A stretch of 64,000 nucleotides of DNA. Origin: Streptomyces roseus. GTDB lineage: Bacteria; Actinomycetota; Actinomycetes; Streptomycetales; Streptomycetaceae. Positions 24,824 through 28,372 of this stretch are shown here, piece after piece. Numbering within the stretch: position 1 is the first letter of the stretch; every line of letters starts with the position of its first letter. The stretch covers positions 1 through 64,000 of the forward strand of contig NZ_LFML01000051.1 in the NCBI RefSeq assembly GCF_001044425.1, written 5' to 3'. The notes below the pieces were generated by a model. That model was not told the DNA's origin. It made no database searches and saw only the letters and a program-made list of their open reading frames with translations. The position numbers and the translations under genes were made by a program.

Positions 24824-24978
24824 GGCGCACCTCCTCGCTGTGTGGGGCGGGAGGGCCGGTGGTCACCCGGTCGAATCCGCGATCCACGGTGGCGGTGAGT
24901 ATTGCTGATCGCCGCCCCCGGACGGAACCCATATTCGGGGTCCAGTTCAGGGTGTGTATGCCCGCTTACCATGCGCTC

Positions 24979-25416
24979 ATGCCCGGTATCCGGATCGTTC
25001 ACCGAACCCCCCTCCCACCCACCGCGGCCTGGTCGCGGGTCACGGACTGGGAACGCCACGGCGCACAGGTCCCGCTCACGCGGACGATCATCGCGACGGC
25101 GCCGCCCACGGGCGCCGGCACGCGGTTCACGGCGCGTACGGGCGTGGGGAGGATGACGTTCGACGACCCCATGGAAGTGGTGCTCTGGCGGCCCCCCGCC
25201 GAGGACTCGGCGGGACTGGTCCGGCTGGAGAAGCGCGGTCGCGCGGTCACGGGCTGGGCGGAGATCGAGGTCCGCCCCGGTCCCGGCGGCGGATCGCTGG
25301 TCGAGTGGCGCGAGGAACTGCGCGTGCGCGGGCTGGGGCGCCGCTTCGACCCGTTGGTCTCGGCGGCCGGCCGGGTGCTCTTCTCGCGGGCCCTCGCCCG
25401 GCTGCTGCGGGGGTGA
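24979..25416 (+). CDS. SRPBCC family (polyketide cyclase/START-like) protein
   Basis: The 145-residue product has the SRPBCC outline: an N-terminal strand with PLPPTAAWSRVTDWERHGAQVP, the central GAGTRFTARTGVGRMTFDDPMEV and a C-terminal LGRRFDPLVSAAGRVLFSRAL helix. Such proteins form a hydrophobic cavity for lipids or aromatic ligands. ATG 24979 aligns with the family start, although no clear ribosome site precedes it. The ligand is unknown, and no polyketide genes are nearby. Confidence 0.72.
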   Translation: MPGIRIVHRTPLPPTAAWSRVTDWERHGAQVPLTRTIIATAPPTGAGTRFTARTGVGRMTFDDPMEVVLWRPPAEDSAGLVRLEKRGRAVTGWAEIEVRPGPGGGSLVEWREELRVRGLGRRFDPLVSAAGRVLFSRALARLLRG

Positions 25417-25434
25417 CGGCGCGGGCTAGGGTGC

Positions 25435-25464
25435 CGGTGATCACCGACCGCCCGGTGATCACCG
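25435..25464. promoter_or_regulatory. Tandem perfect 12-bp palindromes (operator candidate)
   Basis: CGGTGATCACCG occurs twice, at 25435-25446 and 25453-25464, separated by 6 bp (18 bp centre to centre). Each copy is a perfect palindrome. The pair ends 20 bp before the GTG start of the LppU-like gene, overlapping where its promoter or leader must lie. Two dimers bound side by side would be expected; the regulator is not known. Confidence 0.6.
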
Positions 25465-25484
25465 CGAGACCCGAGGAGAGATCC

Positions 25485-26258
25485 GTGGCCACTCCGCCAC
25501 CGCAGCACGGCGCCGGCCCGTACAACCACCCGTACGGCCCGCAGCAGGGCGGACCCCACTCGCCGTACGGGGTCCCGCCGCAGGCCGCCCCGTACGGGCA
25601 CGGCCACGGCCACCAGCCGGTGCCGCAGGTGCCGTACGGCTGTCGCGTGTGCGGGGCCCAGCCGGCGGTGCGGGCCACCGTGCGCGGGCACCAGGGCATG
25701 CTGGTGCTGATGCGGTTCCTGCGCCAGGAGGGGCCGTTCTGCCGCGACTGCGGGCTCGCCACCTACCGCACGATGTCCGCGGACACCCTGTGGCAGGGCT
25801 GGTGGGGGCCGCTGTCCGTGTTCATCACGCCGGTGACCGTGCTCATGAACCTCGGCGCGCGCTCCCGCTTCCTGCGGCTCGCTCCTCCGGCGGGGCGCAT
25901 CCTGCCCTCGCTGGACCCCGGCAGGCCGCTGTGGCGCCGCCCGCCCGCGCTGGTCTTCCTCGCGGCGATCGTGCTGATCGCCCTCGCGCCGCCCCTCCTC
26001 GTGCTGTTGGGCCTGGCGGCCGGGGGCGACGAGTCGTCGGCCGCCGGCCCGGCCATCGGGACCTGCGTGCGCGACGCGGCCCGGCTGCGCAACGAAAAGC
26101 TGGTGCCGGAACCCTGCGGTTCCCCGCTCGCCGCGTACCTGGTCACCAAGGAGCGGGGCACCGGCGGCGCGGACTGCGCCGACGGCGACCTGATCAGCGT
26201 CCCCGAGAAGTGGTCCGAGGGCGCGCACTCCCTGTGCCTCACGCCCGTGCCCCACTGA
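25485..26258 (+). CDS. LppU/SCO3897-like membrane protein with N-terminal zinc-ribbon-like region
   Basis: AGGAG lies 7 bp before the GTG start. Residues 1-50 are Pro/Gly/His/Tyr-rich. A four-cysteine segment (YGCRVCGAQPA, then FCRDCGLATYR) resembles a zinc ribbon, followed by a hydrophobic stretch, another strong helix (ALVFLAAIVLIALAPPLLVLLGL) and an external Cys-containing domain (GTCVRDAARL, EPCGSPLAAYLV) typical of LppU/SCO3897 proteins. The function of the family is unsettled. Two perfect palindromes sit just upstream, so expression is probably controlled. Confidence 0.7.
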   Translation: MATPPPQHGAGPYNHPYGPQQGGPHSPYGVPPQAAPYGHGHGHQPVPQVPYGCRVCGAQPAVRATVRGHQGMLVLMRFLRQEGPFCRDCGLATYRTMSADTLWQGWWGPLSVFITPVTVLMNLGARSRFLRLAPPAGRILPSLDPGRPLWRRPPALVFLAAIVLIALAPPLLVLLGLAAGGDESSAAGPAIGTCVRDAARLRNEKLVPEPCGSPLAAYLVTKERGTGGADCADGDLISVPEKWSEGAHSLCLTPVPH

Positions 26259-26302: not shown

Positions 26303-27535
26303 CTAGCGGATCGGCATGTCCGAGATCGCGCGGGCGATCACCAGCCGCTGGATCTCACTCGTGCCCTCGAAGATGGTGTAGATGGCGCTGTCGCGGTGCA
26401 TGCGCTCCACCGGGTACTCGCGGGTGAAGCCGTTGCCGCCGAGGATCTGGACCGCCTGGGCGGTGACCTTCTTGGCGACCTCGCTCGCGAACAGCTTCGA
26501 CATGGACCCCTCGGCGGAGGTGAAGGGCTTGCCCGCCACGGCCATCCAGGAGGCCCGCCACACCAGCAGCCGGGCCGCGTCGATGGAGGTCCGCATGTCG
26601 GCGAGCTGGAAGGCCACGCCCTGGTTGTCGATGATCGGACGGCCGAACTGCGTACGGGTCTTGGCGTAGTCGAGGGCCACCTCGTACGCGGCGCGCGCGG
26701 TGCCGACGGCCATGGCGCCGACGGCCGGGCGGGAGGCCTCGAAGGTGGCCATGGCCGCGTTCTTCACGCGCTCGCCACCGCCGCCGGCCCTGGCCCGCTC
26801 GTGGGCCCGCGCGAGCCGCTCGTCCAGCTTCTCCTTGCCGCCGAGCAGGCAGGAGCCGGGCACGCGGACGTCCTCCAGGACCACCTCGGCGGTGTGCGAG
26901 GCGCGGATGCCGTGCTTCTTGAACTTCTGGCCCTGGGACAGGCCCGGGGTGTTGGGCGGCACGATGAAGGAGGCGTGGCCCTTGGTGCCGAGCTCGGGGT
27001 CGACGACCGCGACGACGATGTGGACGTTGGCGATGCCGCCGTTGGTCGCCCAGGTCTTGGTGCCGTTGAGCACCCACTCGTCCTTGGCCTGGTCGTAGAC
27101 GGCGCGGGTGCGCATCGAGCCGACGTCGGATCCGGCGTCCGGCTCGGAGGAGCAGAAGGCGGCGACCTTCACGTCGTCGGGGGTGCCGTACATCTGCGGG
27201 ATCCAGGTGCCGATCTGCTCCTCGGTGCCGTTGGCGACGACGCCGATGGCGGCGAGCCCGGTGCCGACGATCGACAGGGCGATGCCCGCGTCACCCCAGA
27301 ACAGCTCTTCCATGGCCACCGGGATGCCGAGACCGGTAGGGTCGAAGAACTGCTGGGCGTAGAAGTCGAGCGAGTAGATGCCGACCTTCGCGGCCTCCTG
27401 GATGACGGGCCACGGAGTCTCTTCGCGCTCGTCCCATTCCGCGGCCGCGGGGCGGATCACCTCGGCCGCGAAGCCGTGGATCCAGTCGCGTACCTGCTTC
27501 TGGTCGTCATTGAGCTCCATGGTGAACTCCGCCAT
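26303..27535 (-). CDS. Acyl-CoA dehydrogenase
   Basis: This 410-residue flavoenzyme introduces the 2,3-double bond into acyl-CoAs in beta-oxidation. It has the usual helical N domain, a beta-domain with CSSEPDAGSD and WATNGG, and a C-terminal helical domain with the signature YTIFEGTSEIQRL, which holds the catalytic base region. ATG 27535 follows GGAGGGGAAC and is favoured over the in-frame start at 27595. It is divergent from a TetR gene across 192 bp that contain GTTAC-type dyads, a common fatty-acid-responsive arrangement. Chain-length specificity is not evident. Confidence 0.92.
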   Translation of the reverse strand: MAEFTMELNDDQKQVRDWIHGFAAEVIRPAAAEWDEREETPWPVIQEAAKVGIYSLDFYAQQFFDPTGLGIPVAMEELFWGDAGIALSIVGTGLAAIGVVANGTEEQIGTWIPQMYGTPDDVKVAAFCSSEPDAGSDVGSMRTRAVYDQAKDEWVLNGTKTWATNGGIANVHIVVAVVDPELGTKGHASFIVPPNTPGLSQGQKFKKHGIRASHTAEVVLEDVRVPGSCLLGGKEKLDERLARAHERARAGGGGERVKNAAMATFEASRPAVGAMAVGTARAAYEVALDYAKTRTQFGRPIIDNQGVAFQLADMRTSIDAARLLVWRASWMAVAGKPFTSAEGSMSKLFASEVAKKVTAQAVQILGGNGFTREYPVERMHRDSAIYTIFEGTSEIQRLVIARAISDMPIR

Positions 27536-27565
27536 GTTCCCCTCCAGCTGTGCGTCCACCAGCGT

Positions 27566-27615
27566 GTTACTAGCGGTAACCCATACGGTGGCCACAGTCT
27601 GTTACCGGCGAGTAG
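27566..27615. promoter_or_regulatory. GTTAC-type dyads in the acyl-CoA dehydrogenase/TetR promoter region
   Basis: GTTAC-TAGCG-GTAAC (27566-27580) is an inverted repeat, and GTTACCGGCGAGTAGC (27601-27616) is a looser second copy. Both lie between the divergent starts at 27535 and 27728, where an autoregulating TetR protein would bind. The same GTTAC-N5-GTARC form occurs in the promoter spacer at 1298-1312. Confidence 0.55.
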
Positions 27616-27727
27616 CCACTGTCAAGCAGGGCCGCCCGCGGTGCAGCCGATCGATCGCGTGGGTGTGCGGGGTGTTACGTTGCGTGGGCGTCACGCACCA
27701 TCGCAAGGGCGGGGAGAGAAACACGTC

Positions 27728-28372
27728 ATGGAGACCACTCAGCAGGCCGGCGAACCGGGAACGGCCGAGCGCCGCAGGCGGGAGCTGCTCGAAGCGGCCG
27801 ACCGGGTCGTCCTCCGGGACGGGCCCAAGGCGTCCATGAACGCCATCGCGGCGGAGGCCGGCATCACCAAGCCGATCCTCTACCGGCACTTCGGCGACAA
27901 GGCCGGGCTCTACCAGGCCCTGGCCGTCCGGCACACCGACGCCCTGCTCGACTCGCTGCGGGCCGCGCTCGACGCCCCTGCCGAACGCCGCAGCCGCGTG
28001 GAGTCCACCCTCGACACCTACCTCGCGGCCATCGAGGCCCGCCCTCAGGTCTACCGCTTCCTCATGCACCCCGCCGAGGACTCGCAGGCCGCCGAGAAGG
28101 GTTTCGACGTGGGCGTGCACTCGGCCCCGCTGCTGCGCCGCCTCGGCGAGGAGCTCGCCGACGTCATCGGCGAGCGCGTGGACCTCGGCCCCGGCGGCGA
28201 GCGCCTGGCCCGGGTCTGGGGCCACGGGATCGTCGGCATGATGCACGCCGCCGGCGACTGGTGGCTCGGCGAGCGTCCCTGTGAACGCGCGGAGTTGGTC
28301 AGCGGACTCACCGACCTCCTGTGGGGCCGGCTGGCCACGGCCGGCAACCGCGCGGACGGCCCGGGATTCTGA
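27728..28372 (+). CDS. TetR family transcriptional regulator
   Basis: This 214-residue regulator has an N-terminal TetR HTH (MNAIAAEAGITKPILYRHFGDKAGLY, about residues 37-62) and a C-terminal ligand domain. GGGGAGAG lies about 9 bp before the ATG. Its position divergent from an acyl-CoA dehydrogenase and next to GTTAC-type dyads suggests it represses that gene and itself, responding to an acyl-CoA or fatty acid. That is inference from context and from other TetR-acyl-CoA dehydrogenase pairs. Confidence 0.85.
   Translation: METTQQAGEPGTAERRRRELLEAADRVVLRDGPKASMNAIAAEAGITKPILYRHFGDKAGLYQALAVRHTDALLDSLRAALDAPAERRSRVESTLDTYLAAIEARPQVYRFLMHPAEDSQAAEKGFDVGVHSAPLLRRLGEELADVIGERVDLGPGGERLARVWGHGIVGMMHAAGDWWLGERPCERAELVSGLTDLLWGRLATAGNRADGPGF

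Follow-up and report, generated by a model that had tools for sequence, protein, structure and literature searches.

Tandem palindromic repressor operators that overlap a promoter are a general kind of bacterial control element. The element described here, from a promoter of Streptomyces roseus, is ordinary in kind: it is real, conserved, lineage-specific and operator-like. As in the general case, perfect short palindromes sit beside a -10-like box and cover the predicted transcription start, with a second copy near; the differences are that here the second copy and the spacing drift, and that the arrangement belongs mainly to one gene in one clade.

Two described regulators, BldM and BldD, recognise sites with comparable half-sites. 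The BldM Group I motif, given as TCACcCgnncGgGTGA in the available text of PMC4125116, shares the TCAC and GTGA half-sites, but in BldM these stand across N8, whereas here the best-kept unit is a spacerless GTGA-TCAC, with N5 to N10 separating one unit from the next. The BldD box, TNAC(N)5GTNA with its N5 gap in the accessible part of PMC4151990, shares the TNAC and GTNA half-sites, but an exact TCAC-N5-GTGA occurs in only one of the 25 leaders compared below and not in the window (the whole 64,000-nucleotide stretch of DNA analysed). As far as the accessible portions of the open-access literature go, PMC4125116, PMC4151990, PMC13102240 and PMC4282423 included, we found no description of this promoter site; the occurrences of GTGATCAC in the accessible Streptomyces texts lie within primers, and SCO3897 had no match in the open-access literature. 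On the protein side the closest described family is LppU/SCO3897 (NF049863): residues 192-253 of the target protein span the whole 64-position model, but the score of 21 bits is below the curated cut-off of 25, and the family model is silent on the promoter.

The palindrome pair and its gene

The features of the locus, in window positions, are as follows.

24859..25416, + strand: upstream gene, Polyketide_cyc2/SRPBCC-like (Pfam 26.7 bits, just under the cut-off of 27.4), ending 18 bases before copy 1
25427..25432, + strand: TAGGGT, a -10-like box (TANNNT)
25435..25446, no strand: palindrome copy 1, CGGTGATCACCG, with its core GTGATCAC at 25437-25444 kept in most clade leaders; proposed primary operator
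25447..25452, + strand: spacer ACCGCC (the loop if an RNA hairpin forms), of differing length between orthologues
25453..25464, no strand: palindrome copy 2, CGGTGATCACCG, with an exact core in 11 of the 25 clade leaders; proposed auxiliary operator
25473..25478, + strand: Shine-Dalgarno-like GAGGAG
25485..26258, + strand: target gene, 257 amino acids, GTG start, no Pfam match, LppU/SCO3897-like C-terminus
27728..28372, + strand: TetR gene (TetR_N and TetR_C_32 domain matches), the nearest recognised DNA-binding regulator downstream; not favoured as binder

Inspection of the window places both exact copies of CGGTGATCACCG in the 68-base intergenic gap between the end of the SRPBCC-like gene (25416) and the GTG of the target gene (25485). 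Their start-to-start distance is 18 bp and 20 bases separate the end of copy 2 from the GTG, in agreement with the original prediction of two perfect tandem palindromes with 18-bp centre spacing, 20 bp before a start codon. The TAGGGT box has no recognisable -35 partner, and no sigma-70 hexamer pair was detected at the locus. The SRPBCC-like gene is a 185-codon open frame here, with a partial alignment only in the close relatives L051-L053 and L055, L056.

The target protein has a Pro/Tyr/Gln-rich start, a CxxC...CxxC arrangement, a hydrophobic segment (by eye) and an LppU/SCO3897-like end; a Pfam scan gave no match. The description of the gene as LppU-like holds as a resemblance, not as membership, since the protein stays under the NCBIfam cut-off (24.2 bits in another search), and another gene in the same genome scores 38.8 bits for NF049863. 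Eight cysteines are invariant in 13 aligned homologues (C53, C56, C86, C89, C194, C211, C231 and C251), the last four of them in the C-terminal part, suggesting a metal-binding ribbon inside and disulfides outside.

In the genome as a whole (G000; 7,833,198 bases in 162 contigs) single sites are common, with 13 occurrences of CGGTGATCACCG, 71 of GGTGATCACC and 247 of GTGATCAC. Single copies are thus unremarkable; the close pair is remarkable. With the 13 CGGTGATCACCG sites placed uniformly, about 0.0004 pairs are expected at a start distance of 12-30, which bears out the very low chance originally ascribed to such a pair, and the genome search that had been proposed found the exact pair once, at this locus only. 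With up to three mismatches the tandem pattern has two places in the genome, this locus and one that is coding-like, and GTGATCAC-N2-13-GTGATCAC occurs a single time. Across 295 Streptomyces genomes, 28 hold a tandem place within two mismatches, and all of those listed except this locus carry two. Places in the window matching within two mismatches number 31, against 7.1 expected.

Under a crude model of codon usage, most of the single sites scored come out as coding-like (40 of 57 in one set, 37 of 40 in another); GTG-ATC-ACC would read as Val-Ile-Thr. The present site is counted among the 17 non-coding-like of the 57; by this crude score about one fifth of random window positions come out as low as the non-coding-like sites. 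When 15 of the 19 other non-coding-like single sites (16 + 3) were checked for a downstream start, as members of a regulon would have, only L117 was positive, and its site itself can be read as codons.

Conservation of the leader in orthologues

A scan of named genomes for orthologues gave 28 loci; in addition, matches to the target protein at E <= 1e-15 occur in 73 of 295 Streptomyces genomes, and the 30 best of these matches were taken as loci (28 of them new). Promoters of weaker matches were sampled only through a search for TAGGGT-N2-5-GTGATCACC and, in a few cases, by one other route. A table of the sequences upstream of 67 loci reduces to 45 distinct leaders in which a -10-like box is present; the other 22 rows (duplicates, boxless, or with a misplaced start as in L163) do not enter the leader statistics. 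The box reads TAGGGT in 41 leaders, TAAGGT in two, TACTGT in one and TATCGT in one (L145, printed as TTATCG and read one base on), a tally that is descriptive because the leaders were selected by these same motifs.

GTGATCAC is present in 22 of the 45 distinct leaders. These, together with L078, L149 and L165, make up the clade set of 25, in which the exact core is found at copy 1 in 21 leaders, at copy 2 in 11 and in at least one copy in 23; L149 and L165 have neither. Copy 1 is kept and copy 2 lost in L057 and L075, and the reverse is seen in L077 and L078. In 16 of the 22 labelled leaders (L145 among them if its box is TATCGT) copy 1 begins 3 nt past the box, in five the distance is 4 nt, and L077 has copy 2 only. 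The distance between centres varies: 18 bp in six of the 25 leaders, 17 bp in one, 16 bp in three, 15 bp in nine, 14 bp in three and 13 bp in three, as measured by the best-matching 8-mer, a measure that is rough where a copy has decayed and wrong for L077. The part conserved best is the 8-bp GTGATCAC within copy 1, which goes with the -10-like box; only the nearest relatives share the exact pair and its 18-bp spacing. By direct count, every one of the 25 clade leaders has TCACC, the right half of the copy 1 core, and 17 have a GGTGA that faces it 4-8 nt further on.

The original prediction had named absence of the repeats from orthologous promoters as grounds for abandoning it; they are present in orthologues, within one clade only. 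More distant homologues have the -10-like box and lack this palindrome. Other palindromes do stand at the same place in other clades (GGCAGTACTGCC in L161; TGTCAGATCTGACA in L018; TGCCGTTCCGGCA in L017, L067 and L170), and we considered whether these might be equivalents, but there is no overall excess: in the 23 other leaders, a set that leaves out the boxless L018, the Fisher p values are 0.98 for palindromes and 0.82 for inverted repeats, and the mean z is -0.23.

On a 46-row protein tree the 22 operator-labelled rows require three changes, against a mean of 15.6 after shuffling, which agrees with a single gain and two losses (L149 and L165). The fork of the 24-row clade has a support of 94/94. 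Branch lengths add up to 4.6 amino-acid changes per column in the 20 rows chosen because their copy 1 is exact, and to 6.38 in the full 24-row clade, 21 of whose rows have copy 1 exact; at this fixed place in the promoter, and within this one clade, conservation goes beyond neutral drift. Chance or neutral local duplication could be invoked for the tandem pair, given that GTGATCAC is so frequent that single copies carry little meaning; nevertheless, the expectation of about 0.0004 close pairs and the survival of copy 1 in 21 of the 24 tree rows across such a branch length already disfavour it, and we consider this explanation exceedingly improbable.

The surroundings of the gene follow the same division. 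All 18 named operator loci match the window's ATPase, SRPBCC-like, acyl-CoA dehydrogenase and TetR genes around the target gene, although the SRPBCC match is partial in five loci and the acyl-CoA dehydrogenase and TetR genes are reversed in L077. In 10 other named loci no ATPase, SRPBCC or TetR match was found within the available flanks; weak acyl-CoA dehydrogenase matches occur in the non-operator loci L072 and L074. This shared neighbourhood implies that the element arrived with, or after, the settling of the gene at this place. It also qualifies the earlier statement that no regulator gene is adjacent, which is true for the immediate neighbours; the TetR gene, 2.2 kb downstream, accompanies the element in 18 of 18 named operator-bearing loci. 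The locus is an example of a promoter that keeps its -10-like box while one lineage gains a new element.

The pattern TAGGGT-N2-5-GTGATCACC itself was found in 10 of 295 genomes, once in each, and 8 of the 10 places are upstream of an orthologue. Some matches of this pattern may be due to chance. One of the two non-orthologue places (L084 1501-1520, reverse strand, in G233) has TAGGGTCGCCGGTGATCACCGG preceding a gene and may be such a case; from its sequence, we take that gene to encode something resembling a MOSC-domain protein. The other is L080.

Operator, hairpin and terminator readings

On balance, we lean towards a DNA operator of repressor-like type lying over the predicted transcription start, with copy 1 as the primary and copy 2 as an auxiliary site. 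A start 7-8 nt after the TANNNT box would fall inside copy 1. A dimer bound to copy 1, 3-4 bp past the box, would then block RNA polymerase, and the gene would be held off until a trans-acting regulator releases it; as a protein sitting over the start would hinder initiation, repression is the natural guess. Copy 2 may serve as a second site, weaker or auxiliary; it would add to occupancy, and its spacing and sequence could drift freely. Variation of the centre spacing between 13 and 18 bp is what would be expected if each palindrome were its own binding unit, and since the gap between copies ranges over about half a helical turn, independent sites are more likely than a phase-locked pair. Also in favour of an operator is the constancy of copy 1 in the clade leaders while the spacers and copy 2 vary. 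The original view of the pair as an operator for a regulator encoded elsewhere therefore survives as the best reading, backed by conservation in the clade, but with the reservation that the pair and its spacing are not the best-kept unit. A trans-acting regulator probably binds the palindrome and switches the gene.

Several observations pull the other way. The pair is found once in the genome and no regulon is visible among the single sites examined; the predicted start is placed by a -10-like box that lacks a -35; and the inner arms, TCACC...GGTGA, survive in each of the four leaders whose copy 1 is not exact (L077, L078, L149 and L165), which for L149 and L165 an operator reading does not predict. 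Moreover, two tandem palindromes are also one 12-bp hairpin, an RNA alternative that the earlier proposal left out. In this alternative the copies would pair in the 5' leader, at the 5' end of the mRNA, to give a 12-bp stem capped by a 6-nt loop, and would control mRNA stability or translation. The leader does fold strongly (minimum free energy -33 kcal/mol, z -4.7, with none of 200 shuffles as low); the mean leader z is -2.49 in the 22 operator leaders against -0.23 in the 23 others, and z is below -1.5 in 18 of 22 against 3 of 23. Tandem copies of a palindrome pair automatically, however, so that the z-score is not independent evidence.

The pattern of TCACC and its facing GGTGA, including their retention in the four leaders just named, would suit a stem, and the variable length of the loop is something that hairpins permit. 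In L064 (S. amritsarensis, 2883-2923) the box and both copies are drawn into one long inverted repeat, TACTGTGCCGTGATCACCG CGC CGGTGATGACGGCACAGTA, again in keeping with a stem. Of 13 substitutions in copy 2, five keep pairing through G-U where a quarter (0.25) would be expected, several of them coming from related rows; the count covers 11 rows with an exact copy 1 and one to three changes in copy 2, and leaves out L057 with its four changes. Compensatory changes are not visible, copy 1 hardly varying at all. Against a hairpin, copy 1 persists without its partner in L057 and L075, a start 7-8 nt after TAGGGT would leave part of copy 1 untranscribed, and positions 25200-25700 have no Rfam match at E <= 1. 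We regard the leader hairpin as a rather unlikely, though serious, alternative to the operator.

A hairpin directly after the stop of the SRPBCC-like gene might instead be its intrinsic terminator or a processing signal. Yet it sits past the -10-like box of the next gene, no terminator-like site was found at the locus, and the element persists in L051-L053, L055 and L056, five loci in which only part of the upstream gene aligns; such a role seems highly improbable.

Candidate binders and related sites

For the operator reading, the nearest candidate is the TetR-family protein encoded downstream, which we do not favour: within the window, its divergent promoter (27481-27760) carries GTTACTAGCGGTAAC and no GTGATCAC. 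This GTTACTAGCGGTAAC, at 27566-27580, stands 30 bases before the probable ATG (27535) of the gene for acyl-CoA dehydrogenase, which is divergent to the TetR gene; the sequence fits the BldD box TNAC-N5-GTNA as well as an operator of TetR type. NdgR was also considered and set aside; one of its listed sites holds TGATCA, but the motif reported in the available text of PMC4340878 differs.

The inner arms TCAC...GTGA could in principle form a site for BldM (TCACcCgnncGgGTGA) or BldD (TNAC-N5-GTNA), since the half-sites are alike. The BldM gap, TCAC-N8-GTGA, is indeed found in L056, L077 and L165, and the BldD gap, TCAC-N5-GTGA, in L055. In the window the gap is N10, however, so that neither the N8 nor the N5 spacing occurs there, and the exact TCAC-N-GTGA gap over the 25 leaders is 10 in two, 9 in one, 8 in three, 7 in eight, 6 in three and 5 in one, with seven lacking it. 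Recognition by either protein thus appears very doubtful.

The site offers a ready bait: it is short, conserved and operator-like, and it precedes a gene without a Pfam match in Streptomyces that include S. katrae, S. virginiae and S. avidinii. A pull-down of the binder would put a name to an orphan regulator and offer a first means of studying when this CxxC/LppU-like membrane protein is produced.

Tandem sites of the form GTGATCACC-N2-8-GGTGATCAC occupy 22 places in 21 of 392 Streptomyces genomes: four at this gene, seven coding-like and 11 non-coding-like, by a crude score based on the codon usage of the window (L171, scored as non-coding-like, is in fact inside a frame). One of the 11 (L186 1501-1524, in G015) is a tandem GTGATCACCTCACCGGTGATCACC, 15-bp spaced, 22 bp before the start of a gene for an NsdA-family regulator (NF053720, 490.7 bits), suggesting autoregulation. 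That an NsdA-family TPR-like regulator recognises the tandem GTGATCAC unit is nonetheless a slim prospect; were it true, the NsdA family would gain a DNA target and the membrane protein would be tied to the differentiation circuitry. The regions upstream of six plasmid-borne NsdA-family homologues (H1, H4, H5, H9, H11 and H14 of 205 records) have no GTGATCAC; these homologues are distant (35-61% identity), and the upstream region of H4 was taken from the start of the match, not from a start codon, so the lead survives this negative result. We treat the L186 site and the flavohaemoprotein/P450 sites that follow as uncorroborated leads, not as evidence of a common binder. In four genomes (L173, L175, L176 and L177, at 1501-1522 in each), likewise among the 11 non-coding-like places, a 14-bp spaced GTGATCACCGGGCGGTGATCAC lies between divergent flavohaemoprotein and cytochrome P450 genes, the domains having been checked in L176.
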